Under the pieces are notes generated by a model. It was given only the letters and a program-made list of their open reading frames with translations, did not search any database and had not been told where the DNA came from. From Marilutibacter penaei (lineage in GTDB: Bacteria; Pseudomonadota; Gammaproteobacteria; Xanthomonadales; Xanthomonadaceae), in contig NZ_JACHTE010000003.1 of NCBI RefSeq assembly GCF_014145395.1, positions 248,001 through 312,000 on the forward strand: a stretch of DNA of 64,000 nt. Reading direction: 5' to 3'. The position numbers and the translations under genes are program-made. Within the stretch, counting starts at the first letter, position 1. The number at the start of each line of letters is the position of its first letter. Of this stretch, positions 1,662 through 17,283 are shown in pieces.

Positions 1662-1686
1662 GCGCGCGCGGAGCGGGCGAGGCGAG

Positions 1687-2514
1687 CTAGGACGAGGACG
1701 CCACCCGCAACGCGAGTTCCGTGCGGTTGGACACCCCGGCCTTGCGGAACACGGCATGGATCTGGTTGCGCACCGTATTGGGGCTGGACCCCAGTTCCCG
1801 GGCAATCTGCTTGTTGCTCAGACCGCCTGCTACCAGCCGCAGGATCTCGGCCTCGCGTGCGGTGAACAGGTACCAGTCAAGCCCTTCCGATGCGGCCCGG
1901 GGCACGTTGCCAGGGATCGCCGGACGCATCGCATGCAACCGGGATGCTTCCGAAACCAGGTTGTCGATGACGTGCTTCACGCCGGCCACGTCGGGCCAGG
2001 GGCGGGTCGCACTGATCACCACGAACAGCACCTGCGAGCCCGTCCCCGCTTGCGCATGGATCGCGAAGCGACGGCTCGCTGGCCGACGTGCCAGCAACCG
2101 GCGTCCCACGCAGGCGCAGGCGTCGAAGTCGACGATGGACGGTGCTTGTACGGCCGACCAGATCGCAACCAGCGACGCGCAGTGGCTGCGCAGCGTGCGC
2201 GGCTCCTCGTGGATCTCACCCTCGAGGTGCAGTATCCGGTCGATGTGCACGGCCGGGGTCTCGACCGTCGCCAGGCCGACGGCGAGGCAGTCGACATCGA
2301 GGCAATCGCCATCGATATCCCGGCTTTCGTCTTCGAACAGGCGTGCGCGCAGCACGTCCCAACTGGTTCCATCCCTGTGCAAGGCTTTCCATCTCCGTCT
2401 ACCCGCCCTTCGCGGGTCGCATGCGCGGTACTGCGACGCGCGCTCCAGTATAGGGAGATACGCCAACGCGCCGGCGATCCGGCCGTGAGGTCTGACAGGG
2501 TGGCTCAGCAGCAT
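1687..2514 (-). CDS. LuxR-type HTH transcriptional regulator (no AHL domain seen)
   Basis: The C-terminus is a clear GerE/LuxR helix-turn-helix: LTAREAEILRLVAGGLSNKQ-type sequence (here FTAREAEILRL) followed by NTVRNQIHAVFRKAGVSNRT. The N-terminal part is not a recognisable autoinducer or receiver domain but carries several Cys residues (CLDVDC and CAC), which could sense a thiophilic metal or redox change. It is the last gene of the leftward operon. The ATG at 2514 overlaps the methyltransferase stop by 10 bases. However, the first 44 codons use rare AGA, AGG and ATA codons, so a TTG start at 2382 (231 residues) is equally possible. It is a natural candidate regulator of the cluster. Confidence 0.8.
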   Translation of the reverse strand: MLLSHPVRPHGRIAGALAYLPILERASQYRACDPRRAGRRRWKALHRDGTSWDVLRARLFEDESRDIDGDCLDVDCLAVGLATVETPAVHIDRILHLEGEIHEEPRTLRSHCASLVAIWSAVQAPSIVDFDACACVGRRLLARRPASRRFAIHAQAGTGSQVLFVVISATRPWPDVAGVKHVIDNLVSEASRLHAMRPAIPGNVPRAASEGLDWYLFTAREAEILRLVAGGLSNKQIARELGSSPNTVRNQIHAVFRKAGVSNRTELALRVASSS

Positions 2515-3596
2515 CCACTGCCCGGGGCGCAGGTGTCGGATGGCGGACGGCTGCCATCAAAAGGCACCAGACCCTTGGTGACCCGTACCGGACGTTCGGC
2601 CGGCGTGTTGCAGTCGAACGGCGATGCGGCGTCGAGGGGCGGTTCGTTCACGCTGCGCAGACCGACCAGGTCGCCCCCATAGGGGGATCGCATCAGCAGC
2701 GCATACGTCTTGGCGCAGACCGCGACGCGCTGCCCGCGCCGATAACGATGGCCATCATCGTCGTGAACCTCCCGCCACGGCCCGCGGTACATCACCGCCT
2801 GCCCCAGTTCGAAGCAGGGCCCGGCCTTGCCCTTGAACGCTTCGACCACGCACAGGCGCACCTCGACATCGCCGATGCGGTCGACCGCTTCGGGGTCGGC
2901 GATCGCCGCGAAGTGCAGTTGCAACCCATGGAAACCCGCGGCCTCGAACAGGCCGATGGCGGCCTGCTCCGTCGGCAGGTGGAGGCGATGGCCGGCCTGC
3001 AGTCCCTGGATGGCATGGGGACCATCAAGGGGCTCGTCCGCCACCAGTACCGTGGCCAGCAGGCGTCCGTCCAGGGCCATCACGCGATGGGCCTCGGCGA
3101 GCAGCAAGGGTTGCAGGCCAGGCGCCACGCGGTTGACGGTCAGGTCCAGTACAAGCCTGTCGAACGTGCCGTCCTCCGCCGCCGGTTGCCGGTGCCGCAG
3201 GTCGTCCCGCTGCTCGGAGAACATCAGGTAGGTGTCCAGGTCACGGATTCCGCCGCGCTGGAGCAAGGCTTCCACACCCTCCGCGTCCTCGCGAAGGTCG
3301 TGCAGCCGAAGCAGCCGAAGTGCGCGCGCCCGCTGCTCGCGCACGACCGGCAGCTGTCGAAGGGCGCGATGACGCGTGTCCGCGATCGTGGCCGACGCTG
3401 CGGCCCGGGGCAGCAGTTGCTCGCTGAACCCGGAGTCCTCGATGCCCCACCACAAGATCCGGGGACATACCGCTTGCTCTGTTTCGAATCGATCCTGCAG
3501 CGCGTCGGCGAGCAGGGTTGCCTGGTGCCTCAGCGGGACGGCACGGACCGCATACCGGTCAGGCGCGTTCATGCCAGGGCGTGTGGTCGAGTTCAT
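2505..3596 (-). CDS. ArsM-like SAM methyltransferase with Cys-rich tail
   Basis: A 363-residue protein whose C-terminal third (AFKGKAGPCFELGQAVMYRG, then DDDGH and AVCAKTY) matches the characteristic C-terminal domain of ArsM-type arsenite methyltransferases and their close homologues. The protein ends C356-x5-C362-C363, a vicinal thiol tail like those seen on arsenic-binding members. The central part has a class I methyltransferase-like strand order (TFDRLVLDLTVNRVAPG), but the N-terminal SAM-binding glycine motif is not obvious, so activity is uncertain. I chose the ATG at 3596 because GAGGGG lies 7 bases upstream; it overlaps the preceding SDR gene by 38 bases. It could instead methylate an organic substrate. 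Confidence 0.7.
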   Translation of the reverse strand: MNSTTRPGMNAPDRYAVRAVPLRHQATLLADALQDRFETEQAVCPRILWWGIEDSGFSEQLLPRAAASATIADTRHRALRQLPVVREQRARALRLLRLHDLREDAEGVEALLQRGGIRDLDTYLMFSEQRDDLRHRQPAAEDGTFDRLVLDLTVNRVAPGLQPLLLAEAHRVMALDGRLLATVLVADEPLDGPHAIQGLQAGHRLHLPTEQAAIGLFEAAGFHGLQLHFAAIADPEAVDRIGDVEVRLCVVEAFKGKAGPCFELGQAVMYRGPWREVHDDDGHRYRRGQRVAVCAKTYALLMRSPYGGDLVGLRSVNEPPLDAASPFDCNTPAERPVRVTKGLVPFDGSRPPSDTCAPGSGCC

Positions 3597-4773
3597 CAGG
3601 CGTCCCCTCGAGATATTCGACGACCCGAGGCAACTGGCCCCCGAACCGGGCGTGATAGCGCGCGAGCGGACCGGACGCGGCCACGAAGCGGTCCTGGCAG
3701 ACCTGGACCGTGTCGAGCGTGGCCTGGGTGAACCGCAGCCCGTCCGCCCGCAGGCAGTCCAGCCAGCCGTGTTCGAACCGCCAGGGATAGGCGCCGATTT
3801 CCAGGTTGGTACGGGCGAATGAAAGATAGTTGCGCTGGCGCAGGTCCAGTGCCTTGAGGTCCACTTCGTCGAGGCTGGCATGGAATACCACCTGGTCCGG
3901 GCGCAGCACGTCGCAGAACTGGCGCCAGAGCGCTTTCATCGAAGGGGAGCTGCCGTTGTCGGACACCAGGTTGACATGGGCACCGTCCGGGACGCGGGCG
4001 AGAATCGCCAACAGGGCCGACTGGAACGTGTCCTGGTGCACGAGGTTCAGCGGCTGGTCCGTGGCCACCACGTGGAGGCGGGCGCGATGACGTTCGCTCA
4101 ACAGGCGCTCGATGCCCATCCACTGCTGGTACACGCCATAGCGCTTGCCGCTGTAGCGGCCGTCTTCGGCCGCCCCGATCACGATGGATGGCCGGATCAC
4201 CAGGAAGGGGACGCCCGCCGCCGCGATCGCATGTTCGGCAGCGCGCTTCGTGGCGGTGTAGTGGGTCGGGTCTCGACGCGGTTCGGCCAGCGCCGCCTCG
4301 GGGACCATGGCATCCGAGTACCCGGCCGCATAGGCGGAGGAAATGAAGGCCAGCAGCGACACGTCAGCCAGGCCGGCCGCTTCGGCAACGCGCTGGGTGA
4401 AGGCGACGTTGATCTGGTTCAAGGCGGCTTCGTCGAAGTAGTCGAGGCACCCTGCGCAGTGCACCACGGTATCGATGCGTTCGCGCGCCATCAGTTCGCG
4501 CAATGCCTCGACCGACGCATCTTCTGCGCCCGCCCAGCGATATGCCACGACGCGTGAGGCATGATCCTCCGGGCATGCGCCCAGCGCCTCCAGTTCGCGC
4601 AGGATGGGTGGCGGCAGCGTGCCCGGTGCGATGTCCTGGCGGGTGGGTACCACGACGACGTCGGCCCAACCGTCATGCAGCATCCCTGCGGCCGCCAGCG
4701 CACCGAGGTAACCGGTGCCGCCGGTGAGCAGCACGCGTCCCCCGCGGCGCGCCCGCTCAAGCAGCGCTTTCAT
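3559..4773 (-). CDS. Extended SDR, fatty-acyl/thioester reductase-like
   Basis: A 404-residue NAD(P)-dependent extended short-chain dehydrogenase. The nucleotide-binding motif TGGTGYLG is at residues 17-24. The catalytic set S145/S146, Y172 and K176 (HYTATKRAAEH) is intact. The overall plan fits the NAD_binding_4/thioester-reductase family, which reduces acyl thioesters to aldehydes or alcohols, rather than sugar epimerases. The ATG at 4773 gives the shortest N-terminus compatible with the Rossmann fold and overlaps the upstream thioredoxin-like gene by 17 bases. It sits in an operon with an ADO-like diiron protein, and the divergent operon holds an acyl AMP-ligase. A fatty aldehyde is therefore a plausible product, but the substrate is not shown. 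Confidence 0.75.
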   Translation of the reverse strand: MKALLERARRGGRVLLTGGTGYLGALAAAGMLHDGWADVVVVPTRQDIAPGTLPPPILRELEALGACPEDHASRVVAYRWAGAEDASVEALRELMARERIDTVVHCAGCLDYFDEAALNQINVAFTQRVAEAAGLADVSLLAFISSAYAAGYSDAMVPEAALAEPRRDPTHYTATKRAAEHAIAAAGVPFLVIRPSIVIGAAEDGRYSGKRYGVYQQWMGIERLLSERHRARLHVVATDQPLNLVHQDTFQSALLAILARVPDGAHVNLVSDNGSSPSMKALWRQFCDVLRPDQVVFHASLDEVDLKALDLRQRNYLSFARTNLEIGAYPWRFEHGWLDCLRADGLRFTQATLDTVQVCQDRFVAASGPLARYHARFGGQLPRVVEYLEGTPDELDHTPWHERA

Positions 4774-5176
4774 GGCTTGGAAGGGTATCGAGGGCGGTCC
4801 GGACCAGCGCGACATCCGGCGCACCGCCGAAGGAAACGAGCCTTTGGCTGACCATGACGACCGGGAACGCCGTGAGCCCGTGCGACATGAACAACTCCGA
4901 GACCTGTCCGGCAAGCCGGGCTTCCGCCGGATCCAACCGGCCTTCGAGGGCGCCCAGCGCCCGCTGCGCCTGGGTCAGCGTGAGGTTGAGCACCGGCCAG
5001 TCGAGGCCGGCATCGTCAAGCGCCTTCCGGACGGCTTCTTCCGCACGGGCATCGATGTCGGCCGTGCCCTGCGTGCAGCAACTGGCCGATACGAGCACGG
5101 CGACATCCTTACCCAGCGCCTGTTTGACAAGGGCGAGATCGCCTTCGGGGGGTGCTTTGTTGAACAAGCCGAACAT
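4757..5176 (-). CDS. ArsD/thioredoxin-like small protein with vicinal cysteines
   Basis: A 139-residue probable thioredoxin-fold protein. A vicinal pair C33-C34 (SASCCTQGTADID) sits at the end of the first beta strand, as in the arsenic metallochaperone ArsD (CCSTGVC type), although the third ArsD cysteine is absent. A later segment, LTAFPVVMVSQRLVSFGG, resembles the cis-proline and dimer region of thioredoxin-fold proteins. Small thioredoxin-like proteins are commonly encoded beside DUF318 permeases. The start has GGAGG five bases upstream. It lies between the permease and SDR genes. Likely roles are delivery of a thiol-reactive metalloid to the permease or redox partnering; both are inferred. 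Confidence 0.7.
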   Translation of the reverse strand: MFGLFNKAPPEGDLALVKQALGKDVAVLVSASCCTQGTADIDARAEEAVRKALDDAGLDWPVLNLTLTQAQRALGALEGRLDPAEARLAGQVSELFMSHGLTAFPVVMVSQRLVSFGGAPDVALVRTALDTLPSHESAA

Positions 5177-5195
5177 CCGGACCTCCGGTTCAGGA

Positions 5196-6110
5196 CTACA
5201 GGGTGAGGGCCACGATCAGCCCAAGCAGGAGCGCGCAACCCAGTACGGTGAGGGTGTGTGCCACGACAAGCGGCAAGCGGAACATGCGGAACAACAGGAC
5301 CACTTCCGGCGGACTGGTGCCGATGGCTGCGACCAGGAAGGTCACCAGGGGACCACCGGGAAAGCCCTTCTCCAGAAGTGCAAGTCCGATGGGAAGCGCT
5401 GCAACGGGAGAGATGTAGAGCGGCAGGCCGACCAGGGCGCAGACGAGGTAGAGCGCCGGCAACGGGAGCGCATCCACGAGCGTGAGCAGCGTGTGCGTCG
5501 GCACGGCGCCGTAAATCAGGCCGCCCACCAGCAGGCCGAGGGCCAGATAGGGCCCGGTCCTGCGCAGTTCCTCGCGTGCGGCCCTCCAGGCGAAGCGGCT
5601 CGCGGGCGCCAGGCCCGGCCATGCCGGGCGGGAGGCATCGCCGACGAAGGTCGCGCCGCTGGGCGCGGTGGACATGATGGCGACATGGCGTCCCAGTCCG
5701 ATCCGCGCGGCCACCACGCCGGCGACGGTGGTGAGTGCAAGTCCGGTGGCGATGAACACCAGGCCGGGCCATGCACCGTGGGTGAGGAACAGCAGGATGA
5801 AGACCCCCTCGTTCACCACCGGAGAGGACACCAGGAACGCGAAACTGGGCGCGAATCCAACGCCTGCACGCAACATGCCATTCAGTGCGGGGATGGTTGA
5901 GCATGAGCAGAACGGTGTGACCACCCCGCCCACGCTCGCCAGGAAGGAGGCCTTGAATCCGGACGCTCCGAGCAGTCGGCCCTGCTGGGCCTGGAACGGG
6001 AAGCGCTGTTGCGCCAGGACCACGCCCCAGGTCACCAGCAGGAACAGCCCGATGAGCAGTGCTCCGTCGAGCACGAGGAAGCGGGTGAACTCGCCCAGCC
6101 AATCGGTCAT
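5196..6110 (-). CDS. ArsP/DUF318-family permease
   Basis: A 304-residue integral membrane protein with about eight hydrophobic segments. The family signature TPFCSCSTIPALNG (residues 65-78, with C68 and C70) is followed by a long SPVVNEGVF segment, as in the ArsP_1/DUF318 (PF03773) permeases. Characterised ArsP proteins export trivalent organoarsenicals such as methylarsenite, and other branches act on copper, zinc or unknown substrates. The neighbours, an ArsD-like protein and an ArsM-like methyltransferase, favour the arsenical assignment, but the sequence alone does not prove the substrate. It is the second gene of the leftward operon. Confidence 0.8.
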   Translation of the reverse strand: MTDWLGEFTRFLVLDGALLIGLFLLVTWGVVLAQQRFPFQAQQGRLLGASGFKASFLASVGGVVTPFCSCSTIPALNGMLRAGVGFAPSFAFLVSSPVVNEGVFILLFLTHGAWPGLVFIATGLALTTVAGVVAARIGLGRHVAIMSTAPSGATFVGDASRPAWPGLAPASRFAWRAAREELRRTGPYLALGLLVGGLIYGAVPTHTLLTLVDALPLPALYLVCALVGLPLYISPVAALPIGLALLEKGFPGGPLVTFLVAAIGTSPPEVVLLFRMFRLPLVVAHTLTVLGCALLLGLIVALTL

Positions 6111-6146
6111 GGCCCTTCGCCCTCGCGTCGTGGCGCAGGGGCGGCT

Positions 6147-6989
6147 TCAGTGGCCTGCGAGGCCGGCACTGGCGGAGGGCATCCCGCCGTAGGACTGCAT
6201 CGCCTCGACCAGTGGTGCCGTCACCTCGGGCTCGAAGCCCGCCCGGTCCAGCGTCTCGACGTAGGCATCGAGTGCTTCGATCCGGATCTCGTCGATGTCG
6301 GTCTTGAGGTCACCCAGGCTGAGAGCACCGCAATCAATGTGCAGCCGGTCGCAAAGGAAATGGCAACTGGTGCTGACCATGCTGAACAGCTCGGGCATGA
6401 CGCGATGGTGTGCCCAGCGCAGGCTGTCATTGATGGCGTCGGCATCGTCCTCGCGCATCCGCCGGATGCGCGCGAGCCCGATCTCAAGGTGCTCCAGTTC
6501 GTCCTCGAGGATCTTTCCGGCCAGGCTCGACGTATCCGGGTCGCCTTCGCGCTTGAGCGTGCGATACAGCACGATCGCCATGGTCTCGGTCATCAGGTCC
6601 TGGATCAGCAGGCACGCACCGAGATCCTTGTTGGCGACCGCCGTGCTGAAGTGCCGACGGATGTTGAACCACTGCGGTTCGACGATTTCGCGCATGACGT
6701 CATAGTCGTGCCGCTTGCCAAGGCTGGACAGCATCAGGATGTGCTTGCACTCCTCGTGCGCCTGCTTGACGGCCTCGATCTTGCTTTCGGTGTCCGGCAT
6801 CAGCGGCACCATCTCCGAATAGTTCTCCACGGCCATGATTTCACCCGCTACCGCGTTGGACGCGATGTAGGCGAGCAGATTGAAGTAGCTGTCCCCCTTC
6901 TCGTGGCGGCTCTCGATATGGCTGCGTCGGCTGGGCACGCGAAGGTCGGCCGGACCCGCGAGTGCGGGCGAAGCGGTGGCATTGGACAT
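6147..6989 (-). CDS. Aldehyde-deformylating-oxygenase-like diiron protein
   Basis: A 280-residue ferritin-like helical protein. All six carboxylate/histidine ligands expected for a diiron centre are visible in the order and spacing of cyanobacterial aldehyde-deformylating oxygenase (ADO): E50 (AGEIMAVENY), E80-x2-H83 (EECKH), E135 (CLLIQDLMTETMAI) and E164-x2-H167 (DELEHLEIG). The CLLIQ segment is nearly identical to that of ADO. ADO converts fatty aldehydes to alkanes and formate, but related diiron proteins perform other oxidations. Residues 1-30 are an extension rich in Ala, Ser and Arg. It is the first leftward gene, with GGGAG nine bases before the ATG. ADO-type proteins outside cyanobacteria are rare. 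Confidence 0.8.
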   Translation of the reverse strand: MSNATASPALAGPADLRVPSRRSHIESRHEKGDSYFNLLAYIASNAVAGEIMAVENYSEMVPLMPDTESKIEAVKQAHEECKHILMLSSLGKRHDYDVMREIVEPQWFNIRRHFSTAVANKDLGACLLIQDLMTETMAIVLYRTLKREGDPDTSSLAGKILEDELEHLEIGLARIRRMREDDADAINDSLRWAHHRVMPELFSMVSTSCHFLCDRLHIDCGALSLGDLKTDIDEIRIEALDAYVETLDRAGFEPEVTAPLVEAMQSYGGMPSASAGLAGH

Positions 6990-7274
6990 GGCTCGGACTC
7001 CCTGTTCGAGTGGACGGCGAGGCGAACACGGGAGCCGGGCCCGGTCGGGCAGGCGGCGTCGCTACGCTCGGAGTCGAAGCTACCTGCGTGGGCGAGGTGG
7101 GCGCCATAGTACATAGCTTCTATTCATGCGCTGCGCCCGCACGGCTAGCATCAGGACGCGAAACGTATCGTTCGAGGCGCTGCAATGCGCCCTACGCAAG
7201 GGTTGCAGACGCATCCACGCTGCATTCGATGCCGTGGAGACCAGGGACGAGGAGAAACGGGAGTGGGAGGTCCA
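6990..7274. promoter_or_regulatory. Divergent control region of the accessory cluster
   Basis: This 285-base gap separates the divergent ADO-like and pstS-like genes and must hold both operon promoters. The stretch around 7106-7133 (TAGTACATAGCTTCTATTCA) is strikingly AT-rich against its surroundings and is the best place to look for -10 elements and an operator. No clear lux-box or Pho-box repeat was recognised by eye. Confidence 0.5.
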
Positions 7275-8144
7275 ATGGACGGAAGGCATGGGGTGCGGCC
7301 CCGATGGAGCGTGATGCCCTACGTTGCTCTAGTCATGACCGCAGGCATGTTGGCAGCGTGCGTGAACGGGACGGCGGAGAATGCCGATGGCCGGGGCGGC
7401 GAAGGGCGCATCCTGGTCGTGGGGTCCAGCACCATTGCGCCCCTGATGTCGGAAATTGCCAAAGCGTACGAGGCGGATCATCCCGGCGTGCGTATCGAGG
7501 TCCAGGCAGGGGGCAGCTCGCGGGGGGTGCTCGACGTGCGCCAGGGTGTCGCGGAGCTGGGCATGGTGTCGCGGGCGCTCGCGGAGGATGAAGCGGATCT
7601 CGATCGCGTGCTGGTGGCACGGGACGGGGTGGGCCTTGTCGTGCATCGGGACAACCCCGTGTCGCAGCTGTCCAGGAAGCAGGTCATCGGCATTTATACG
7701 GGTGCCATCGGGAACTGGCGGGATGTCGGCGGGCCCGATCTTCCGATTACCGTGGTCAGCAAGGCCGAAGGGCGTTCGACGCTGGAAATTTTCGTGGAAC
7801 ATTTCGGCATCGCGTATCGCGACATCCGGGCCGATGTCGTCATTGGCGACAACCAGCAGGGTATCCAGACCGTGGCGGGCGCGCCGGGCGCGATCGGCTA
7901 TGTGTCCATCGGTACCGCCGAGTACGAGTCAGGCGCCGGCGTGCCGATCCGCCTGATGCCGCTGGACGGCGAGATGCCCAGCACCGCGGCCGTGGCCAGT
8001 GGCGACTACGGCATGAGCCGAGAGCTCAATCTTGTCTACCGGCCACCCTTGGATGAGCGCATCGCGGGCCTTCTTTCGTATGCGCGATCCGCTGAAGCGG
8101 CGCGCGTGGCCCGCGGCCAGTTCTTCGTGCCCGCCAGCGACTGA
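7275..8144 (+). CDS. pstS: PstS-like phosphate/oxyanion-binding lipoprotein
   Basis: A 289-residue periplasmic binding protein of the PstS type (PBP-like family 2). An N-terminal signal with the lipobox LAAC predicts lipid attachment at C29. The anion-binding loop GSSTIAPLMSEI, plus AGGSSRGVLDV and later GYVSIGTAEY, follow PstS. ATG 7275 was chosen for the GGGAGG four bases upstream. It opens the rightward operon with dedicated pstC, pstA and pstB genes but no phoU, so this is probably not the housekeeping phosphate system. Because PstS proteins also bind arsenate with varying selectivity, oxyanion uptake for the cluster is plausible. Confidence 0.88.
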   Translation: MDGRHGVRPRWSVMPYVALVMTAGMLAACVNGTAENADGRGGEGRILVVGSSTIAPLMSEIAKAYEADHPGVRIEVQAGGSSRGVLDVRQGVAELGMVSRALAEDEADLDRVLVARDGVGLVVHRDNPVSQLSRKQVIGIYTGAIGNWRDVGGPDLPITVVSKAEGRSTLEIFVEHFGIAYRDIRADVVIGDNQQGIQTVAGAPGAIGYVSIGTAEYESGAGVPIRLMPLDGEMPSTAAVASGDYGMSRELNLVYRPPLDERIAGLLSYARSAEAARVARGQFFVPASD

Positions 8145-8159
8145 GCAAAGAGCGCGACG

Positions 8160-9068
8160 ATGTGGACCTCAGCGGGCACGGATGCTCCCAGCCCGGCGCC
8201 GCCCGGGTTGCGTCGTCGCAGCCGATGGGGGGATCAGCTGTTCTGGCTGGGGATGGCGCTACTCGCAGCCATGGCGGCCTCGACGGTCCTCCTGATCGCA
8301 TGGTTGCTGCTGTCCGAAAGCCTGCCGTTGATCCTCAAGGGCGGTGCCTGGCGCTTCCTCTCCGACCCCGGATGGTGGCCCCGGGAAGGCAGTTTCAACA
8401 TGGCGCCCATGGCACTCGCCAGCCTCCTGCTCACCGTGGGTGCGCTCACCCTGGCGGCACCGTTTGGAATCGCCTACGCCATACACACGGTCTTCAACGC
8501 CGGGCCCCGGCAGGCCGTCTTGCTGGGCGGGCTGGTGGAGGCCAGCGCGGCGGTGCCCACGGTGGTCTATGGCCTGTGGGGCATCACCGCGGTGGTGCCC
8601 CTGCTGGGGCAGGTGAACCCGCCGGGGGCCAGCCTTGCGGCCGGCATCGTCGTCGTCGCGGTGATGATCTTCCCGACTCTGACCCTGCTCGTTCAAGCTG
8701 CGCTGCGTGCGGTGCCCGCGCACTATGCCCATTCCGCGGAGGCGCTGGGCGTTTCCCGGGGGCAGGTGATCCTGCGCATCATCCTGCCAGCGGCGCGCAA
8801 GGGGGTGCTATCGGCCATGGTGCTCGCGGCGGCCCGCGCCATCGGCGAGACCATGGTGGTCCTCATGGTGTGCGGGAACATCGTGCAGGTGCCGGGCTCG
8901 GTCTTCGAGCCGGTGCGCACGCTGACAGCCAACATCGCGCTCGAAATGCCTTACGCAATGGGCGATCACCGGATGTCGCTGTTCGTGGCCGGTCTGCTCA
9001 TGCTCGTGCTGATCGCCGTCATGGTGATGCTCGGCGGAACGCTCGCACGCGGGCGCCGCCACACATGA
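8160..9068 (+). CDS. pstC: Phosphate-type ABC transporter permease PstC-like
   Basis: A 302-residue inner-membrane permease with six predicted membrane segments. The EAA-loop region SAEALGVSRGQVILRIILPA around residues 195-215 and the RAIGETMVVLMVCGN segment are typical of PstC. It starts 15 bases after the pstS stop, and its stop overlaps the pstA ATG in an ATGA, which indicates translational coupling. It forms the channel with PstA for whatever oxyanion PstS binds. Confidence 0.9.
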   Translation: MWTSAGTDAPSPAPPGLRRRSRWGDQLFWLGMALLAAMAASTVLLIAWLLLSESLPLILKGGAWRFLSDPGWWPREGSFNMAPMALASLLLTVGALTLAAPFGIAYAIHTVFNAGPRQAVLLGGLVEASAAVPTVVYGLWGITAVVPLLGQVNPPGASLAAGIVVVAVMIFPTLTLLVQAALRAVPAHYAHSAEALGVSRGQVILRIILPAARKGVLSAMVLAAARAIGETMVVLMVCGNIVQVPGSVFEPVRTLTANIALEMPYAMGDHRMSLFVAGLLMLVLIAVMVMLGGTLARGRRHT

Positions 9069-9955
9069 GGGGGTGGCGAGCGAAGCCCGTTCCGTGGCGG
9101 CCCGGCAGCAACGGATCGACAGTCCCCGCGCTGCTGACCGGGATCACGGTCCTGGTCCTGGCCTGGCCTCTATGGATGGTGGCGTCGAAGGGCGTGCCGT
9201 TGCTCGGCCCTGAATTCCTGATCTCGTCCCCGCGCGACGCGGGTCGGGCCGGCGGCATCGCACCGATCCTGGTCTCGACGCTCGGAATCGTTTCGATCAG
9301 TCTGGCGGCGGCCCTTCCCCCGGCGTTCGCGGTAGCCACGATGCTGTCCGAAGCCCTGCCTGCCGGAGGCCGGACGGCGCGCCTCATTCGCGGCAGCCTG
9401 GATGTGCTCGCGGGAGTGCCCTCGATCGTGTTCGGAATATTCGGCCTGGTCCTGTTCTGCCGAAAGCTGGGGATGGGCTACTCGATTGCCGCCGGCGGAC
9501 TGACCTTGGCCTGCATGATCCTGCCCACGCTGGCACGTGCGATCCACGTCGCCCTGGAGGCAGCAGCGGAGGAGCATCGGAATGCAGGCCTCGCGCTGGG
9601 ACTCTCGCGCCGTGCGGTCTTGTGCCGGGTGCTGGTGCCCGTCGCGCTGCCCGGGATCTGTGCCGGCATGGTCCTGGGGCTGACCCGTGCGCTGGCGGAA
9701 ACCGCGGTGCTGCTGTTCACGAGCGGGTACTCGGACCGGATGCCCGGCTCGGTCCTGGACTCCGGACGCAGCATCTCGGTCCATATCTACGAGTTGTCGA
9801 CCAACGTTCCGGGCGGTACTGCACCGGCTTACGGCTCGGCGCTTGCACTGTTGCTGCTGCTCGCGTGCCTGAGCCTGGCCATGCATGGCCTGCTGCGATG
9901 GATGCATCGCAGGCTGGCAGGCATGGCCATACCTACAGGAGGGTCAACCGGGTGA
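9065..9955 (+). CDS. pstA: Phosphate-type ABC transporter permease PstA-like
   Basis: A 296-residue permease. Family features are VLAGVPSIVFGIFGLVLF, the coupling loop NAGLALGLSRRAVLCRVLVP and RALAETAVLLFTSGY, all placed as in PstA. It overlaps pstC by four bases and its own stop overlaps the GTG of pstB (GTGA). The tight packing shows that the transporter genes are expressed as one unit with the downstream ligase and exporter genes. Confidence 0.9.
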   Translation: MRGWRAKPVPWRPGSNGSTVPALLTGITVLVLAWPLWMVASKGVPLLGPEFLISSPRDAGRAGGIAPILVSTLGIVSISLAAALPPAFAVATMLSEALPAGGRTARLIRGSLDVLAGVPSIVFGIFGLVLFCRKLGMGYSIAAGGLTLACMILPTLARAIHVALEAAAEEHRNAGLALGLSRRAVLCRVLVPVALPGICAGMVLGLTRALAETAVLLFTSGYSDRMPGSVLDSGRSISVHIYELSTNVPGGTAPAYGSALALLLLLACLSLAMHGLLRWMHRRLAGMAIPTGGSTG

Positions 9956-10794
9956 ACCAGATCGCCATGAGCGGGCCGTGCAACGCAAGGCTCCGGGATG
10001 AAGACGACCTTTCGGCCTGCTGCGGATCGTCCCACGAAGCCATCGAGCTGGACGACGTCAGCGTGAGTTATGGCGACGAGGCCGTGGTGACCGACGTGGC
10101 CCTGCGGATTCCCCGCAACGCCGTGACCGCGTTGATCGGTCCATCCGGGTGCGGAAAGTCGAGTCTTCTGTATTGCCTGAACCGGATGTGCGATCTGATT
10201 CCCGGCTGTCGGACACGGGGCAGCGTGCGCTTTGGATGGCTCGACAACGAGCGCCTGGCCTGCGATCCGACGATCCTTCGACGGCACGTCGGCATGCTGT
10301 TCCAGCGACCGGGGCCGTTTCCGTTTTCCATCCGCCGCAATATCGAGTTCGCGCTCCGCCAGCATGGTGTCCGCGCCCGTCCGGACCTCGACGAGCGCGT
10401 GGAGTGGTCGCTGCGCGAGGCTGGCCTGTGGGATGAAGTGCGCGATCGCCTGGACAGGCCGGCCTTGGGTCTGTCAGGTGGGCAGCAGCAGCGATTGTGC
10501 CTGGCGCGGGCGCTGGCGCTGGATCCTTCGGTACTGCTGATGGACGAACCCTGCAGCGCGCTGGATCCCATCTCCACCCGCAAGCTCGAGGAACTGATCC
10601 GGCGGCTTGCCCGTGACCGGACCATCGTGCTGGTCACGCACAGCCTCCCCCAGGCGCGCCGTGTCGCCGACCACGTCGCTTTGCTTTGGAAGGCTGAAGG
10701 GGATGCAGGGCGTCTCGTCGAACATGGTCACGCGCGGCGCTTCTTCGAACAGCCCCATCATGCAGTGACGCGCGAGTACCTGAGCTTCGCGTGA
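9952..10794 (+). CDS. pstB: Phosphate-type ABC transporter ATPase PstB-like
   Basis: A 280-residue ABC ATPase. Walker A is GPSGCGKSS, the signature is LSGGQQQRL, Walker B is LLMDEPCSALDP and the switch histidine is in THSLPQARR. The Q-loop reads FQRPGPFPFSIRRNIE instead of the usual FQKPNPFPKSIYDN of PstB, so this is a diverged member. I chose GTG 9952 because GGAGGG precedes it and it overlaps the pstA stop; ATG 9967 is the alternative. The N-terminal extension contains an unusual Cys and Cys-Cys pair before the ATPase core. Confidence 0.9.
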   Translation: MNQIAMSGPCNARLRDEDDLSACCGSSHEAIELDDVSVSYGDEAVVTDVALRIPRNAVTALIGPSGCGKSSLLYCLNRMCDLIPGCRTRGSVRFGWLDNERLACDPTILRRHVGMLFQRPGPFPFSIRRNIEFALRQHGVRARPDLDERVEWSLREAGLWDEVRDRLDRPALGLSGGQQQRLCLARALALDPSVLLMDEPCSALDPISTRKLEELIRRLARDRTIVLVTHSLPQARRVADHVALLWKAEGDAGRLVEHGHARRFFEQPHHAVTREYLSFA

Positions 10795-10866
10795 TGGGAC
10801 CGCCGTCGGGGCGGATGGTACATCCATTCCATTGAGCGACCCGGGGCCGGTTCCTAGCATCGATGC

Positions 10867-12441
10867 ATGGCCTTCCTTCCCGAATCCGGTGCGGCGTCGT
10901 CGTTCGGCATGTCAGTGCAGCCCTTGCGCGTCGAGGCATTGCTGGACCATGCCGCGCGGGTGCATCCCCGGTCCACGGTCACCACGGCCGGAGCCGCAGG
11001 CACCTCGAAGAGCCTGTCCTATCCGGAGCTGGCGGAGGCGGCCGGCCACGTCGCAGTCCTGATGCAGGCCGCGGGATTCAGGCCGGGGGACCGCATTTTC
11101 CTTCTTGCCCATGCGGCGGCGGAAGTCCTTGCCTGGACGTACGGTGCGGCACGCCTGGGCGTCGTTCCTCATTTCGCCAACCCGGGTCATGGCGCCGGGA
11201 CGCTTCGGATGCAGTGGACGAAATCCGGTGCACGCTGGCTGCTTCACGATGCCGCATGCGAGGCGCTGGCCCTTGAATGCGTGGCGGGCGGGGACGAGGC
11301 TTCCCTGCGGCGGCTGGACATGGCGTCCGCCCCCGCGCTGCGAGCCGGCCTCAAGGAGGATCCGCGACCCGAAGGCGCGCTGGCACTGGTGTGCTACTCG
11401 TCCGGTACCACTGGACTGCCGAAGGTGGTGGCATTCACCCATCGCTCCACCGTGCTGCACGCGTTCGCTTGCGCCTTGCCTGATGCGATGTGTCTCGCTT
11501 CGTCTGACCGGGTGATGCCGCTCGTGCAGCCTTTCCATGCCGCCGCCTGGGCCGCGCCGTTCGCGTGTCCGCTGGTGGGCGCTTCGCTGGTGCTGGTGCC
11601 GCCGAGTGCCGAACCTGCGCAATGGTACGAATGGATCGAGGTGCACCGCGTCACCGTGCTCGGCGCGGTCACGGCTCAATGGCGGATGCTGCTGGCGTAC
11701 ATGGAGCAGCACAACCTGCATTTCAGTACGTTGCGGAGGACGGTGGTGGCCGGCACCCGGATGCCGCCGGCCGTCGCCACGCGAATCGTTGATCGCCTCG
11801 GCGTCGAGGTCAGGCAAGCGTGGGGCATGACCGAGACGTCACCGCTGGCCACGATCGGCTGCCACGGTCGTGTTCGGGAGACTGCACACGGTCGCCCCGT
11901 GTTCGGTGTCCAGGTCGCCGTGCGCAACTGGGCGGGTACCTTGCAGCCCGGCGGGATGGGAGAGCTGATGGTGCGCGGTCATTGGGTGGCGACGCCCGGC
12001 TGGAACGGCGAATGGCTGTCCACCGGCGACCTTGCGATGGTGCATGCCGATGGCGGCGTCGAGGTGGTGGACCGTCTGTGCGATGTCGTGCACGGGACCT
12101 CCGGCCCGCTCAGCTCCGCCCTGGTGGAATACGAAGCCTGCGTGCAGGAAGGCGTGGCAGATGCCGCGCTACTGGCCATGGAAGGCCACTTTCCGCACGG
12201 GGTGTTGGCGTGGGTCGCACGGGATGGAAGCGAGCCGGCGCGGATCGTCGACGGCCTTCGACAACGCCTCGCCACCGCTTTCGATGGCTGGAATCCGGAC
12301 CGATTCGTTCGTGTGGATGCGTTGCCCTTCACCTCATCAGCGAAAGTCAGGAAGACGCAGCTGAAGGCCGAGCTTCTGGCGGCCGGGCATCTTTCCGCGC
12401 CGAACCCGGGTTCCGGGAAGCCGGCCCGGGCGCCGGCATGA
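10867..12441 (+). CDS. AMP-dependent acyl ligase, AlkK-like
   Basis: A 524-residue member of the ANL superfamily, which activates carboxylic acids as acyl-AMP and usually acyl-CoA. Motif A3 is SSGTTGLPK (residues about 178-186), A5 is WGMTETS (about 318), A7 is STGDLA (about 386) and the A10 lysine is in SSAKVRK (about 490). The layout around PLVQPFHAAAWAAP resembles medium- and long-chain fatty acyl-CoA ligases such as AlkK. The usual motif between A7 and A10 (SGGEWISS type) is altered here to GTSGPLSS. It follows pstB by 72 bases and overlaps the next gene in an ATGA. The substrate is unknown; a fatty acid is likely. Confidence 0.85.
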   Translation: MAFLPESGAASSFGMSVQPLRVEALLDHAARVHPRSTVTTAGAAGTSKSLSYPELAEAAGHVAVLMQAAGFRPGDRIFLLAHAAAEVLAWTYGAARLGVVPHFANPGHGAGTLRMQWTKSGARWLLHDAACEALALECVAGGDEASLRRLDMASAPALRAGLKEDPRPEGALALVCYSSGTTGLPKVVAFTHRSTVLHAFACALPDAMCLASSDRVMPLVQPFHAAAWAAPFACPLVGASLVLVPPSAEPAQWYEWIEVHRVTVLGAVTAQWRMLLAYMEQHNLHFSTLRRTVVAGTRMPPAVATRIVDRLGVEVRQAWGMTETSPLATIGCHGRVRETAHGRPVFGVQVAVRNWAGTLQPGGMGELMVRGHWVATPGWNGEWLSTGDLAMVHADGGVEVVDRLCDVVHGTSGPLSSALVEYEACVQEGVADAALLAMEGHFPHGVLAWVARDGSEPARIVDGLRQRLATAFDGWNPDRFVRVDALPFTSSAKVRKTQLKAELLAAGHLSAPNPGSGKPARAPA

Positions 12442-15400
12442 GCAGCATCGGGCATCCCGATGGGACCGTCTCGCGCCGTCCAACCGACGAGGTGGATGCA
12501 GTAGAAGGCGGCCTGTCCCGCTACCTGCAATGGGTGGTACGTCGTCGGGTCTGGGTGATTGCGCTGGTCGTGGTGGTCACGGCCGTGCTGGGGACCTTCG
12601 CCGCTCGCCAGCAGGTCATCATCAACCCCGCCACCGTGGTGCCCCAGGGCCACCCGTACATCCAGGCAACGAACACCATCGAACGGATCTTCGGGTCGAA
12701 GTACCTCGTGGTGATCGGTGTGACCCCCACCCAGGGCGACGCCCTGCAGCCCCGCGTGCTGGAGACGGTCCAGGACATCACGCGTGCACTGTACGCGTCG
12801 CCGTCGGTGAGCAAACAGACGCTGCTCAGCCTGTCTTCGCGGCAGGCCAAGGGGATCGCGGCCACCGCCGAGGGGTTCGAAGTGTCGCCCCTGATGCCGA
12901 CGGTTCCGCGGGACGAGCCGGGCCGGCAGGCCTTGCGCGATGCGCTCCAGGCCAATCCGGTCTACCGCGATTCGGTGATCTCCTCGGACTGGAAGACCGC
13001 GACCGTGCTGGTGGAGTTGAAGGAGGATGCCGGGGGGTTCGGCGCGATGCTGCGGGACGTCGATGCCATCGTCGAGGCTGCGCGGGGTCCCGGCATCGAG
13101 ATATCGGTCGGCGGCAACCCGGTGTTCCTCCACCAGGCCGAGGTCTTCGCGGACCGCATCAACTGGCTTTTCCCGATCGCGGTACTGGTGATCGGACTGT
13201 TGCATTTCGAAGCGTTCCGGACCGTCCAGGGCCTCGTACTCCCTCTGGTGACCGCCGTGCTGTCGGTGGTGTGGGGCGTCGGGATCATGGGCGCCATGGG
13301 CGTGCCGATGGACATCTTCAATTCCCCCACGCCGATCCTCATCCTGGCCGTGGCGGCCGGGCACGCCGTGCAGCTTCTGAAACGCTACTACGAGTGCTAT
13401 GCCGTACGGGCGGGCGAGCAGGGCATGGTGCCGGAGCTCGCCAACCGGCAGGCGATCGTCGATGCGCTGCTCGCAGTTGGACCGGTGCTGGTGATTGCAG
13501 GAGGCGTGGCGGCACTCGGCTTCTTCTCGCTGGTGGTGTTCCAGCTGGAGACCGTGCGCGCCTTTGGCATCTTCACGGGGATTGGCATCCTGTCCGCGGT
13601 GGTGCTTGAGTTCACCTTCACGCCGGCGGTCCGCGCCAGTCTTCGTCCGCCTCGTCTGCAGCACATTGAGCCCGGTGGCGGTACGCGGATCTGGGACCGC
13701 ATTGCGGGAGGCATCGCCGTGGCGGTGGAGCGCCCAGCAACGCGACGGCGCCTCATATGGGCCGTGGCCCTTCTCGTGGCGCTCGCGATGGTCGGGTGGC
13801 CTCGCGTGCAGGTGGACAACGCCAGCAAGACATTCTTTGACGAAACGCTGCCGGTGCAGCGCGACGATGCCTTGCTCAACGCGCGTACCGGTGGAACCAA
13901 CGCGCTTTACGTGATGATCGACAGTGGTGCGGTCGACGGGATCAAGTCGCCACAGGTTCTGGCCGCGCTGCGTACGTTGCAGGCCGCCGCGGACGCGTAT
14001 CCGGAGGTCGGCAAGACCGTGTCGATCGACGACTTCCTGTCCCGCATGCACGTGGCGGTGACCGGGGATGGCGACGCATCGGCCCTGGTCGACCCGAGGA
14101 ACGGGGCGCTGATCGCGCAGTACCTCTTCCTCTACGCCATGTCGGGCGACCCCGGGGATTTCTCGGCGCATGTCGACTACGAGTACCGTCGGGCCAAGCT
14201 TTCGGTGATGCTGCGGACGCACAGCAATGCCGAGATCGCCGCGCTGGTGGACCACCTGCGCGACGTGGCGGGCGCGGTGATACCCGATGGGACGTCCGTT
14301 TCGTTCGGCGGTGAGGTTGCGCAGACCCTGGCCGTGACCGACGTGATGGTGCGCAGCAAGCTCCTGAACATCATCCAGATCCTGGCCGTGATCTTCCTCG
14401 TGTCCGCGATGGCGTTCCGGTCGTTCCTGGCGGGTGCGCTGGTGCTCTCGCCGCTGCTCGTGGTCCTGTCGCTGGTGTTCGGCGTGATGGGCCACTTCGG
14501 CGTGCCATTGAATATTCCGAACTCGCTCATTTCGGCCATGGCCGTCGGCATCGGCGCGGACTATGCGATCTACCTGATCCATCGAACGCGCGAGTACGCC
14601 CTGCAAGGCATCGCGCTGGAAGACGCGATCAATCGTGCGATCCGTACTGCTGGCAAGGCCTGCCTGTTCGTGGCCACGGCCGTGGCGGGTGGGTATGCCG
14701 TCCTTTTCCTTTCCCATGACTACAACGTGCATATGTGGCTTGCGACTTTCATCGTGCTGGCAATGGTCGCCAGCGTCCTCACCGCACTGGTGCTGATACC
14801 CGCTGCCCTGCTGGTTCTGCGGCCTGCCTTCCTGGTGCGGGATCGGTCCGGCGACCGGGGAGCGGTGCTGCTGGTGATCGCGGCGGCGATCGGCTTCCTG
14901 GCGTACTCGCAGCTTGCGTGGGCCGGAGACGACGCCCGCGCGATCATGGAACGGAACGCCGACGTCATGCGCTTCGCGACGGCGAAGTCGCAGGCGCGCT
15001 TCGAGCTGGTCTCGGCGTCCGGTGGCCAGCGCCGACGTGAGGCGGACCTCCGGTCGCGTCTCCGTCCTGGTGGACGCGACACCGAGCGGCTGATCCGTTT
15101 CGAATCTCCTGCCGACATCCGCGGCACCGCGACGCTGCTGGTCGAGGACAGCGTCAACGGCGACGGCATGTGGGTGTACCTGCCGGCCCTGAAACGGGTG
15201 CGTCGCCTGGCGGCTTCGAACCGCAAGGACAGTTTCGTGGGCACGGACTTCAGCTACGGCGACGTGATGGGGCATCGCGTCGAGGACTGGACCCATGTGC
15301 TGGAGGGAGAGCGCTCGCGCGATGGCATGCCCCATTGGGTGGTGGCGTCCGTTCCCGCCACGCAGGCGGTGCGCGACGACAGTGGATACGGCAAGCGGAT

Positions 15401-15647
15401 CACCTGGATCCGCCAGGACAACCATGCCGCCACGCGAGTCGACGTGTTCGATACCGGCGGGCAGCCCTACAAACGCTTCGAGTTCAAGGACCTGCGCGAG
15501 GTCGCTCCGGGCAAATGGCAGCCGATGGAAGCGCGCGGCGAGAACCTGCAGAGCGGTCATCGCACTACGATCACCTTCACCGGCTTCGAAGCGGGGGTGC
15601 CCTTGGCCGATGACCTGTTCTCTCCCAATCGCCTGGATCGACCCTGA
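12438..15647 (+). CDS. RND/MMPL-family transporter fused to a LolA-like outer-membrane lipoprotein-sorting domain
   Basis: A 1069-residue protein. Residues about 30-800 are a two-repeat RND/MMPL lipid exporter with 12 membrane segments (GLLHFEAFRTVQGLVLP in repeat 1, GIGADYAIYLIHRTREY in repeat 2). From about residue 810 a hydrophobic stretch ending in LAWA-GDD, looking like a former signal peptide, leads into a soluble domain of about 240 residues. Its WVYLPALKRVRRL and DFSYGDVMG motifs are typical of LolA-like outer-membrane lipoprotein-sorting proteins, which are normally separate genes beside such transporters. It overlaps the ligase by four bases and the porin by one. It probably extracts a lipid from the inner membrane and carries it across the periplasm. 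Confidence 0.88.
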   Translation: MSSIGHPDGTVSRRPTDEVDAVEGGLSRYLQWVVRRRVWVIALVVVVTAVLGTFAARQQVIINPATVVPQGHPYIQATNTIERIFGSKYLVVIGVTPTQGDALQPRVLETVQDITRALYASPSVSKQTLLSLSSRQAKGIAATAEGFEVSPLMPTVPRDEPGRQALRDALQANPVYRDSVISSDWKTATVLVELKEDAGGFGAMLRDVDAIVEAARGPGIEISVGGNPVFLHQAEVFADRINWLFPIAVLVIGLLHFEAFRTVQGLVLPLVTAVLSVVWGVGIMGAMGVPMDIFNSPTPILILAVAAGHAVQLLKRYYECYAVRAGEQGMVPELANRQAIVDALLAVGPVLVIAGGVAALGFFSLVVFQLETVRAFGIFTGIGILSAVVLEFTFTPAVRASLRPPRLQHIEPGGGTRIWDRIAGGIAVAVERPATRRRLIWAVALLVALAMVGWPRVQVDNASKTFFDETLPVQRDDALLNARTGGTNALYVMIDSGAVDGIKSPQVLAALRTLQAAADAYPEVGKTVSIDDFLSRMHVAVTGDGDASALVDPRNGALIAQYLFLYAMSGDPGDFSAHVDYEYRRAKLSVMLRTHSNAEIAALVDHLRDVAGAVIPDGTSVSFGGEVAQTLAVTDVMVRSKLLNIIQILAVIFLVSAMAFRSFLAGALVLSPLLVVLSLVFGVMGHFGVPLNIPNSLISAMAVGIGADYAIYLIHRTREYALQGIALEDAINRAIRTAGKACLFVATAVAGGYAVLFLSHDYNVHMWLATFIVLAMVASVLTALVLIPAALLVLRPAFLVRDRSGDRGAVLLVIAAAIGFLAYSQLAWAGDDARAIMERNADVMRFATAKSQARFELVSASGGQRRREADLRSRLRPGGRDTERLIRFESPADIRGTATLLVEDSVNGDGMWVYLPALKRVRRLAASNRKDSFVGTDFSYGDVMGHRVEDWTHVLEGERSRDGMPHWVVASVPATQAVRDDSGYGKRITWIRQDNHAATRVDVFDTGGQPYKRFEFKDLREVAPGKWQPMEARGENLQSGHRTTITFTGFEAGVPLADDLFSPNRLDRP

Positions 15648-16897
15648 TGAGCGGCCGCGGCCGGGTCGCCGCGACCGTCAGGGCGATCGTGATGGCAGCG
15701 GGCGTGGGCGGCGTGCTCCCGCCGTTGCAGGCGGCCGGCCCTGCACTCGAGGGCGAGTTCGCGGCGGGACTGTGGTCCTCGGACCGGCGGCTTGAAGACC
15801 GCAGTGGCATTGCCAGTGCGCGGGCGCGCCTGGCCCTCGACTGGCAGGTCGGAGAGGGGGTGTCGGTACGCGGCGAGGCCTGGGCCGCCTGGGGTCCCGA
15901 GCGCCTGGACGGTCGAAGCTGGGACGCAGGCCTGCGTCGGCTGCTGGTGGCGTTCGATTCGGTGCCCTGTACGCCCGCGCTCGGCCGGGAAGAAATACTG
16001 TGGGGCCGTTCCGACGGGCTCAATCCGACCGATCAGGTATCGCCGCGAAACTTCCTGCGCCTCAGCCCCCGGGATCGAGACCAGCGCAGTGGACGCGGAG
16101 GTCTGCACCTCGATTGCATGCTCGGGGAGGGGCGGTTTCAGGCCCACTGGCTCGGTGAGTTCCACTTCAACGACGTCCCGCTGCCCCTGCCGCCAGGCGT
16201 ACGTTTCAGGGAGGACGATGCGGATGCAGGCGCCGACATCGCGATGCGCTATGAGCGTCGTGGCCAGCGACTCGACTGGGCACTCAGCGTGCTCGACGGC
16301 CATGACCCCTATCCCACGCTTGCAGTCCGCGATGTGAGGCCAAGTGGGCTGCTGCTCGGACGCGATGCCAGCCCGATCCGGATGCTGGGAGGGGATGCCG
16401 CACTCGCCATCGGGACGGCCGTGCTGCGCGCCGAGGTCGCGCGGACGTGGCAGGACGGGAACGGTCGGGCAGGATCGGCACGGCGGCCTTCGCATACGGC
16501 GGTGGTGGCCGGGGCTGAGTGGTTCGTGGGCGACATGGCCACGTTCTCGGTGCAGGGTTTCTGGAAGCATCTCGATGGGCGGGGCGGCACGGCGACGGTA
16601 CCGGCCCGCATCCAGCAGGCCCAGGGCCTGCTGGCGAACGAGGTTGACCGGAACCAGCATGGGCTGACCCTGCGCTATGCGCGGCCGCTGTGGGAAAGCC
16701 GGGGCGACGTGGAGGTGTTCGCCGTCTGGTCCCGGCCCCGGGACGACTGGATGTTGCGGGCAAGGCTTGAGCGGAGCCTCGGGGACCGGAGTGTGCTGCG
16801 CATCGGCGCGGACCTCTTTGGCGGTCCGGCCGACAGCTATCTGGGAAACCTCCGTGACAACTGCCTGGCGGTGGCCGAACTGGGCTACGCCTGGTGA
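15647..16897 (+). CDS. DUF1302-like outer-membrane beta-barrel protein
   Basis: A 416-residue exported protein with a signal peptide cleavable near LQAA. The segment EEILWGRSDGLNPTDQVSPR at residues about 113-132 is the family hallmark of DUF1302-like outer-membrane proteins that accompany MMPL/RND and LolA-like partners. The rest shows alternating beta-strand patterns, and the protein ends in an aromatic-containing strand (ELGYAW) as expected for a barrel. It is the last gene of the rightward operon, and its ATG overlaps the previous stop. It likely completes export of the cluster product to the outer membrane or outside. Confidence 0.8.
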   Translation: MSGRGRVAATVRAIVMAAGVGGVLPPLQAAGPALEGEFAAGLWSSDRRLEDRSGIASARARLALDWQVGEGVSVRGEAWAAWGPERLDGRSWDAGLRRLLVAFDSVPCTPALGREEILWGRSDGLNPTDQVSPRNFLRLSPRDRDQRSGRGGLHLDCMLGEGRFQAHWLGEFHFNDVPLPLPPGVRFREDDADAGADIAMRYERRGQRLDWALSVLDGHDPYPTLAVRDVRPSGLLLGRDASPIRMLGGDAALAIGTAVLRAEVARTWQDGNGRAGSARRPSHTAVVAGAEWFVGDMATFSVQGFWKHLDGRGGTATVPARIQQAQGLLANEVDRNQHGLTLRYARPLWESRGDVEVFAVWSRPRDDWMLRARLERSLGDRSVLRIGADLFGGPADSYLGNLRDNCLAVAELGYAW

Positions 16898-17283
16898 CGG
16901 GCCTGGCCCACCGCCATGCCACGGCGCACGGTCGCGCCCCCTGCGCGTAGCCGGTAAAGTAGCCGGCATGAGCCCGGCCGGTCGCTTTCGCAACAGATGC
17001 GCCACGCCCGTCCCCGAGAGGGGCGGCCCGGCGTCGTGGCGACCCGGCTGGCGATGGTGGCGTTGAATCCGTACGCCCTGTCTTCCGCTTCCCGGAGAAC
17101 GTCCACCATGCCTGCCCGCTGTCATGCCCCGTCCCGGGGTCGCCTCCTTGTCCGTGTCTACGCTCCCGCGGTGCTCGCGCTCCCACCAGTGTGCGCGGTG
17201 TGCGCGGCGCAAGCGGAAGGCAGGCTGGCCCCCACGACCCCGGCGGACGCCCATGTGGCCCGCATGTACGAGATTGCCCGCCC
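16898..17283. other. Gap between the accessory cluster and trpG
   Basis: This 386-base gap should contain the promoter that now serves trpG-trpD-trpC, since trpE is far away. Only one short reading frame (from 17108) has a plausible ribosome site. No rho-independent terminator, repeat or attachment site was recognised. Confidence 0.5.

Follow-up and report, generated by a model that had tools for sequence, protein, structure and literature searches.

A relative of aldehyde-deformylating oxygenase among arsenic-like genes in a mobile 15-kb cluster points to a possible, so far undescribed, bacterial pathway that makes or breaks carbon-arsenic compounds

The window (the whole 64,000-nucleotide stretch of Marilutibacter penaei DNA that was analysed) contains an island inside the trp operon. 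In congeners, trpE, a conserved ORF and trpG lie in a row. In the window, a 15-kb insertion lies between that ORF (873-1661) and trpG. The island and its genes are as follows:

1662-17190, no strand assigned: island between the conserved trp-operon ORF and trpG
1687-2514, minus strand: LuxR-type regulator with three conserved Cys (C...CxC) in its sensor part
2505-3596, minus strand: degenerate ArsM-like protein with the ArsM C-terminal domain, SAM motif and catalytic Cys lost, tail CAPGSGCC
3559-4773, minus strand: extended SDR of the thioester-reductase type, YxxxK and TGGTGYLG intact
4757-5176, minus strand: small thioredoxin-fold/ArsD-like protein with an invariant vicinal Cys33-Cys34 (the Cys-Cys protein)
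5196-6110, minus strand: ArsP_1-family permease
6147-6989, minus strand: diiron protein of 280 aa resembling aldehyde-deformylating oxygenase (ADO), assigned from PF11266, ligands, predicted fold and alignment
7185-8144, plus strand: PstS-like phosphate-type binding protein (family match)
8160-10794, plus strand: PstC-, PstA- and PstB-like ABC importer, named from sequence
10867-12441, plus strand: AMP-forming acyl-CoA ligase (family match)
12438-15647, plus strand: MMPL (RND) transporter and LolA_like domain (family match), which share one reading frame
15647-16897, plus strand: putative outer-membrane protein, conserved in the type A loci described below, with no Pfam match

The ADO-like ORF, for which the first-pass annotation gave no strand, is on the minus strand; it starts with an ATG at 6989, and a ribosome-binding-like GGGAG lies upstream. 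Its product matches the PF11266 Ald_deCOase model with 56.8 bits (E 3.6e-15; cut-off 28), compared with 355-427 bits for canonical ADOs. Identity to cyanobacterial ADO is 17-26%. In an alignment of 18 homologues from the Gamma-, Beta- and Alphaproteobacteria, Myxococcota and Cyanobacteria, E50, E80, H83, E135, E164 and H167 are invariant. Their spacing (E50-x29-E80-xx-H83 and E135-x28-E164-xx-H167) is that of the two E-X28-29-E-X2-H motifs of ADO. In alignments with seven cyanobacterial ADOs and with solved ADOs, the six residues fall on the ADO ligand columns (E33/E61/H64/E116/E145/H148 in Nostoc numbering; PMC9743570). The CLLIQ helix is also present. A chance match is excluded by the E-values and the conservation.

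The AlphaFold2 model of the ADO-like protein, built from the 18-row alignment, has a pLDDT of 86.7. In Foldseek and VIA-align comparisons, cyanobacterial ADO ranks first, with ADO chains at Z 24-27. The best structural match is 4rc5 (Z 27.1, rmsd 2.1 Å, 221 of 221 residues), and R2lox is the next family in VIA-align (Z 21). The conserved ADO ligands, the CLLIQ helix and the ADO-type diiron protein outside cyanobacteria that the first-pass annotation reported are confirmed. An identity as the azoxy-forming VlmB was rejected: its fold matches at only Z 19 and no azoxy partner genes were recognised.

The IQ-TREE tree has 42 rows, with its root drawn at the midpoint. It contains 23 rows of the ADO-like family, 12 cyanobacterial ADOs and an outgroup that includes Myxococcota matches at about 30-55 bits, which are other ferritin-like proteins. 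In this tree, the cyanobacterial ADOs form a clade with 100/98 support. The ADO-like family forms a separate group with moderate support (91/75) and long branches, so that the branching order within the family is unsure. The ADO-like protein groups with 22 relatives beside the ADOs and is not inside the ADO clade. Both kinds occur in the genome of Adonisia turfae, where two ordinary ADOs score 402 and 355 bits on PF11266 and a single member of the ADO-like family scores 59 bits. Because the two kinds form separate groups and coexist in this genome, the family is, judged from sequence comparison, related to ADO without being a cyanobacterial ADO of recent acquisition. It is a rare subfamily that stands beside ADO, and the protein of the window is one of its members. 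The earlier ADO-type label stands for the fold and the ligands. An identity as a cyanobacterial-type ADO is ruled out by the score on the ADO equivalog model TIGR04059 (54.5 bits, far below the cut-off of 222.65) and by the position outside the ADO clade. The accompanying statement that ADO is almost a cyanobacterial signature is too strong, since ADO genes have been reported from the Flavobacteriaceae (PMC10176705).

Nineteen loci from one genome scan were compared. In most type A loci, the order is ADO-like gene, ArsP_1 permease, Cys-Cys protein, SDR, ArsM-like protein and LuxR. The divergent half contains PstSCAB, acyl-CoA ligase, MMPL-LolA_like and outer-membrane protein genes. Type A hosts are the window genome, Pseudomonas, Lysobacter, Rubrivivax, Roseateles and others; the exceptions in structure are L008, which has the first half only, and L021, which ends with its contig. 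Type B loci keep a core of ADO-like, ArsP, Cys-Cys protein and SDR genes, although no ArsP or Cys-Cys match was detected in one of them (L017). Next to this core are an amino-acid-type ABC importer, an OsmC-like protein and an exporter with LolD/MacB-like and LolA-like parts. In most loci of types A and B, the permease gene comes after the ADO-like gene. The Sphingomonas and Myxococcales loci contain two ADO-like genes and an SDR, with no ars-like genes nearby. Their ADO-like genes are tandem pairs followed by the SDR (Sphingomonas pokkalii, L018 9088-10867; a Myxococcales MAG, L019 9141-10762). The ArsM-like gene is absent from the type B, Sphingomonas and Myxococcales loci. All loci but that of Adonisia (L022) pair the ADO-like gene with an SDR gene; near the Adonisia gene there is no SDR.

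At the Adonisia locus, one gene encodes a canonical arsenite methyltransferase, which scores 265.9 bits against a cut-off of 263. The locus also has two desaturases, the ADO-like gene, FAAL-ACP, KS-AT-ACP and acyltransferase-like and HAD-like proteins. Spacing and direction suggest that all these genes form one cluster. This apparent lipid/polyketide cluster (L022 6539-20769 and L045 16911-19823) has two FAAL-ACP genes. One Adonisia FAAL-ACP-KS ORF appears to stop inside its KS domain.

Members of the ADO-like family occur in 1 of 398 sampled Pseudomonadota genomes, 2 of 149 genomes in the family of the window, 2 of 300 in the order of Azohydromonas and 1 of 292 cyanobacteria. Each count includes its centre genome, so the true frequency is lower still. 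In plasmids, there is no tblastn match to the ADO-like protein of the window or of Adonisia, and viral contigs contain no relative of the ADO-like protein. The clean insertion into the trp operon implies that the unit moves together. The gene cluster is mobile, and the ADO-like subfamily seems to have spread as part of it. A far more divergent relative (about 105 bits) is encoded at L049 9040-9894 (also L026) in a Myxococcota genome and has its own Cys-rich segment CVPVCGVCGMVGGSCG.

At the H7 region of ADO, the ADO-like family has an insertion with C209, C213 and C220, all three invariant in the 18 homologues. Helices H6-H8 form the substrate entrance of ADO (PMC9743570), and the aligned position would place the Cys triad at this entrance. 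A terminal CC is found in the type B ADO-like proteins, in the Adonisia member and in one of the two Myxococcales copies. The tail of the second Sphingomonas copy contains three CC motifs. Type A ADO-like proteins have no CC tail; in type A loci, the ArsM-like protein ends in GCC instead. In the sequence alignment, several tunnel residues conserved in ADO are replaced in the family: FF by QW, the second Tyr of YxxY and the Cys of QAC. The first-pass annotation was incomplete in that it missed these cysteines, the arsenic-like neighbours and the mobile-island context.

Its placement of the ADO-like gene in an operon with a reductase-like SDR is correct, as the SDR gene (3559-4773) lies in the same minus-strand operon. 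Among solved structures, this SDR is closest to the thioester reductases MxaA, AusA and CAR, and AAR is not among its NCBIfam matches.

The ArsM-like protein is related to arsenic methyltransferases by two comparisons. All nine members match only arsenic methyltransferase NCBIfam models, with scores far below the cut-offs, and ArsM/AS3MT fill the first 13 Foldseek rows. In VIA-align, matches are spread over many Rossmann methyltransferases, with ArsM tied at Z about 16 against a best of 17.7, so only the sequence-aware Foldseek order and the NCBIfam matches favour ArsM. The model is of middling quality (pLDDT 74.6), with a poor C-terminal part. An alignment of five members with Adonisia ArsM shows that none of the five has DLGSGAG, the Cys of SNCVINL or the Cys of YFACVAG. 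Methyl transfer appears unlikely because the SAM motif and two catalytic cysteines are gone. The protein keeps invariant C261, C294, C329, C356, C362 and C363, and its CAPGSGCC tail recurs unchanged at the C-terminus of an ArsD from L075. The Cys-Cys protein resembles thioredoxin and, weakly, ArsD (hhalign 78% over 37 columns). Pfam ArsD matches 2 of its 12 members and Thioredoxin_3 matches 7 of 12. A PDB search with its profile gave chance matches only.

Arsenic is the best guess for the element handled by the cluster, because ArsM-, ArsD- and ArsP-type parts co-occur and Adonisia has a true ArsM. The cluster would serve the metabolism of a thiophilic metalloid, most probably arsenic. The best permease scores are with SaoE and the SO_0444 Cu/Zn family and lie below the respective cut-offs, which makes Hg, Sb or Cu/Zn possible. 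Neither the window genome nor any other type A genome tested has a canonical ArsM. There is therefore no evident methylated arsenic precursor in these genomes, and a C-As bond would have to come from a different enzyme or with a compound taken up by the cell. Open-licence papers yielded nothing relevant on a link between arsenic clusters and ADO-type enzymes or diiron proteins.

The reading we prefer, tentatively and at less than an even chance, is that the SDR makes an aldehyde and the ADO-like diiron protein then cleaves its C1-C2 bond with O2, within organoarsenical (perhaps arsenolipid) metabolism. In the scheme we infer, arsenic is the element, an aldehyde the substrate and biosynthesis the direction, and each step is conditional. 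PstSCAB, or the amino-acid-type ABC importer in type B, would import the metalloid or its carrier. The ArsD-like, ArsM-like and Cys-tail proteins would keep the metalloid, in its trivalent form, bound as thiolates. A carboxylic acid would become the aldehyde through the acyl ligase together with the thioester-reductase SDR. The ADO-like protein would use O2 and ferredoxin-type electrons to cut the aldehyde, releasing formate and leaving a shortened (arseno)alkyl product. ArsP and the MMPL/LolA-like system would export the product, perhaps an arsenolipid or arseno-hydrocarbon. Between the earlier guesses of hydrocarbon formation and a different oxidation, the latter is the better.

Aldehyde cleavage is consistent with the six ligands, the ADO fold and the thioester-reductase SDR, which adjoins the ADO-like gene even in Sphingomonas and Myxococcales. 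An arsenic cluster is suggested by the conserved type A unit, which moves as a whole, and its type B version, by the database matches of the ArsM-like protein, by the tail shared with ArsD and by the ArsD similarity of the Cys-Cys protein. The sensor cysteines of the LuxR regulator also point to it, as does the Adonisia copy, whose neighbours include a true arsenite methyltransferase, desaturases, FAAL-ACP and PKS. Against the preferred reading are the best matches of the permease, the changes at ADO-conserved residues, the lack of canonical ArsM in the type A genomes tested and the lack of an SDR near the Adonisia gene. The missing ArsM-like gene in type B, Sphingomonas and Myxococcales also counts against it, as does the absence of any ars-like genes near the last two.

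The same genes may instead break down organometalloids, which is rather unlikely. An organoarsenical or organomercurial would be imported, the diiron protein would oxidatively cleave C-As, the SDR would take the aldehyde or acid fragment, and As(III) would leave via ArsP. The gene cast is similar to that of the Sec-assisted organometallic (SAO) system, as described in a review (PMC13188914), and the permease of the window matches SaoE best. A dedicated importer would be odd if only inorganic arsenic were detoxified, and the tested type A hosts have no canonical ArsM. However, the acyl ligase, the MMPL/LolA-like exporter and the Adonisia desaturases, FAAL and PKS look biosynthetic, and no C-As-cleaving relative of ADO is known to us.

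Ordinary alkane synthesis, in which the thioester reductase and ADO-like protein are a pair convergent with AAR/ADO and the metalloid-handling genes are mere neighbours, is improbable. The SDR and ADO-like genes do occur together in nearly all loci, including those of Sphingomonas and Myxococcales with two ADO-like copies, an SDR and no ars-like genes nearby, but extra cysteines and CC tails mark the family, the whole unit is kept and mobile together, and the score is far under the ADO equivalog cut-off. Oxidation of Cys-bound trivalent (organo)arsenic to the pentavalent state by the diiron centre and O2 is about as improbable: the Cys triad and CC tails are on the diiron protein itself and the partner proteins are of arsenic type, but this reaction does not need the thioester-reductase SDR or the acyl ligase and no comparable diiron arsenic oxidase is known to us.

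Another C-As-forming step would be needed if the cluster is biosynthetic, since the type A hosts tested have no canonical ArsM. ADO releases an alkyl radical after cleavage of the aldehyde C1-C2 bond (PMC9743570). As a long shot, the diiron protein might itself form the C-As bond: thiolate-held As(III) might capture this radical in place of H and give a long-chain alkyl arsenical in one step. The idea rests on this radical chemistry and on the cysteines of the entrance triad or the CC tails. If true, it would be a SAM-independent, O2-dependent route to arsenic hydrocarbons.

The origin of arsenic-containing lipids and hydrocarbons is unsolved, and several pathways of biological arsenic cycling in algae are yet unknown (PMC11009773). 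A compact mobile cluster with an O2-using diiron enzyme and ArsM-, ArsD- and ArsP-like proteins is a concrete candidate, amenable to knockout or expression in ordinary hosts. In either direction, it would widen the range of functions of the ADO superfamily.

Cyanobacterial ADO (TIGR04059, PF11266) shares the fold, six ligands, CLLIQ helix and adjoining reductase gene. It differs in that the ADO-like family has the H7 insertion with the Cys triad and, in part, CC tails, and the ADO-like protein has changed tunnel residues, a different reductase and metalloid-type neighbours. The VlmB azoxy synthase and R2lox share a ferritin-like diiron oxidase fold (Z 19-21) but are clearly further from the ADO-like protein than ADO is. 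The arsinothricin arsQML genes of Burkholderia gladioli are likewise a small sporadic proteobacterial cluster with an ArsM-related protein and a transporter (PMC8552651). Unlike arsQML, the island has no radical SAM ArsL, its ArsM-like protein lacks the SAM motif and catalytic cysteines, and diiron and SDR enzymes are present instead. The bisenarsan (bsn) cluster of Streptomyces also couples arsenic to acyl-chain chemistry, but its C-As bond needs the EPSP-synthase homologue BsnM and a partner, and an ADO-like gene is not mentioned (PMC12159101). According to the review, the SAO cast is an ABC importer, a Trx-like protein, a Cys-Cys-COOH protein and a MerB-like organometallic lyase (PMC13188914). 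No MerB-like lyase was seen in the island and SaoL has no match among the island proteins scanned; the island has a diiron enzyme, SDR, acyl ligase and LolA-like exporter. By the same description, the island shares with SAO an ABC importer, a SaoE-like permease, a Trx-like protein and a protein with Cys-Cys at its carboxy terminus. Should the cluster break down organometalloids, it would represent an aerobic equivalent of SAO.
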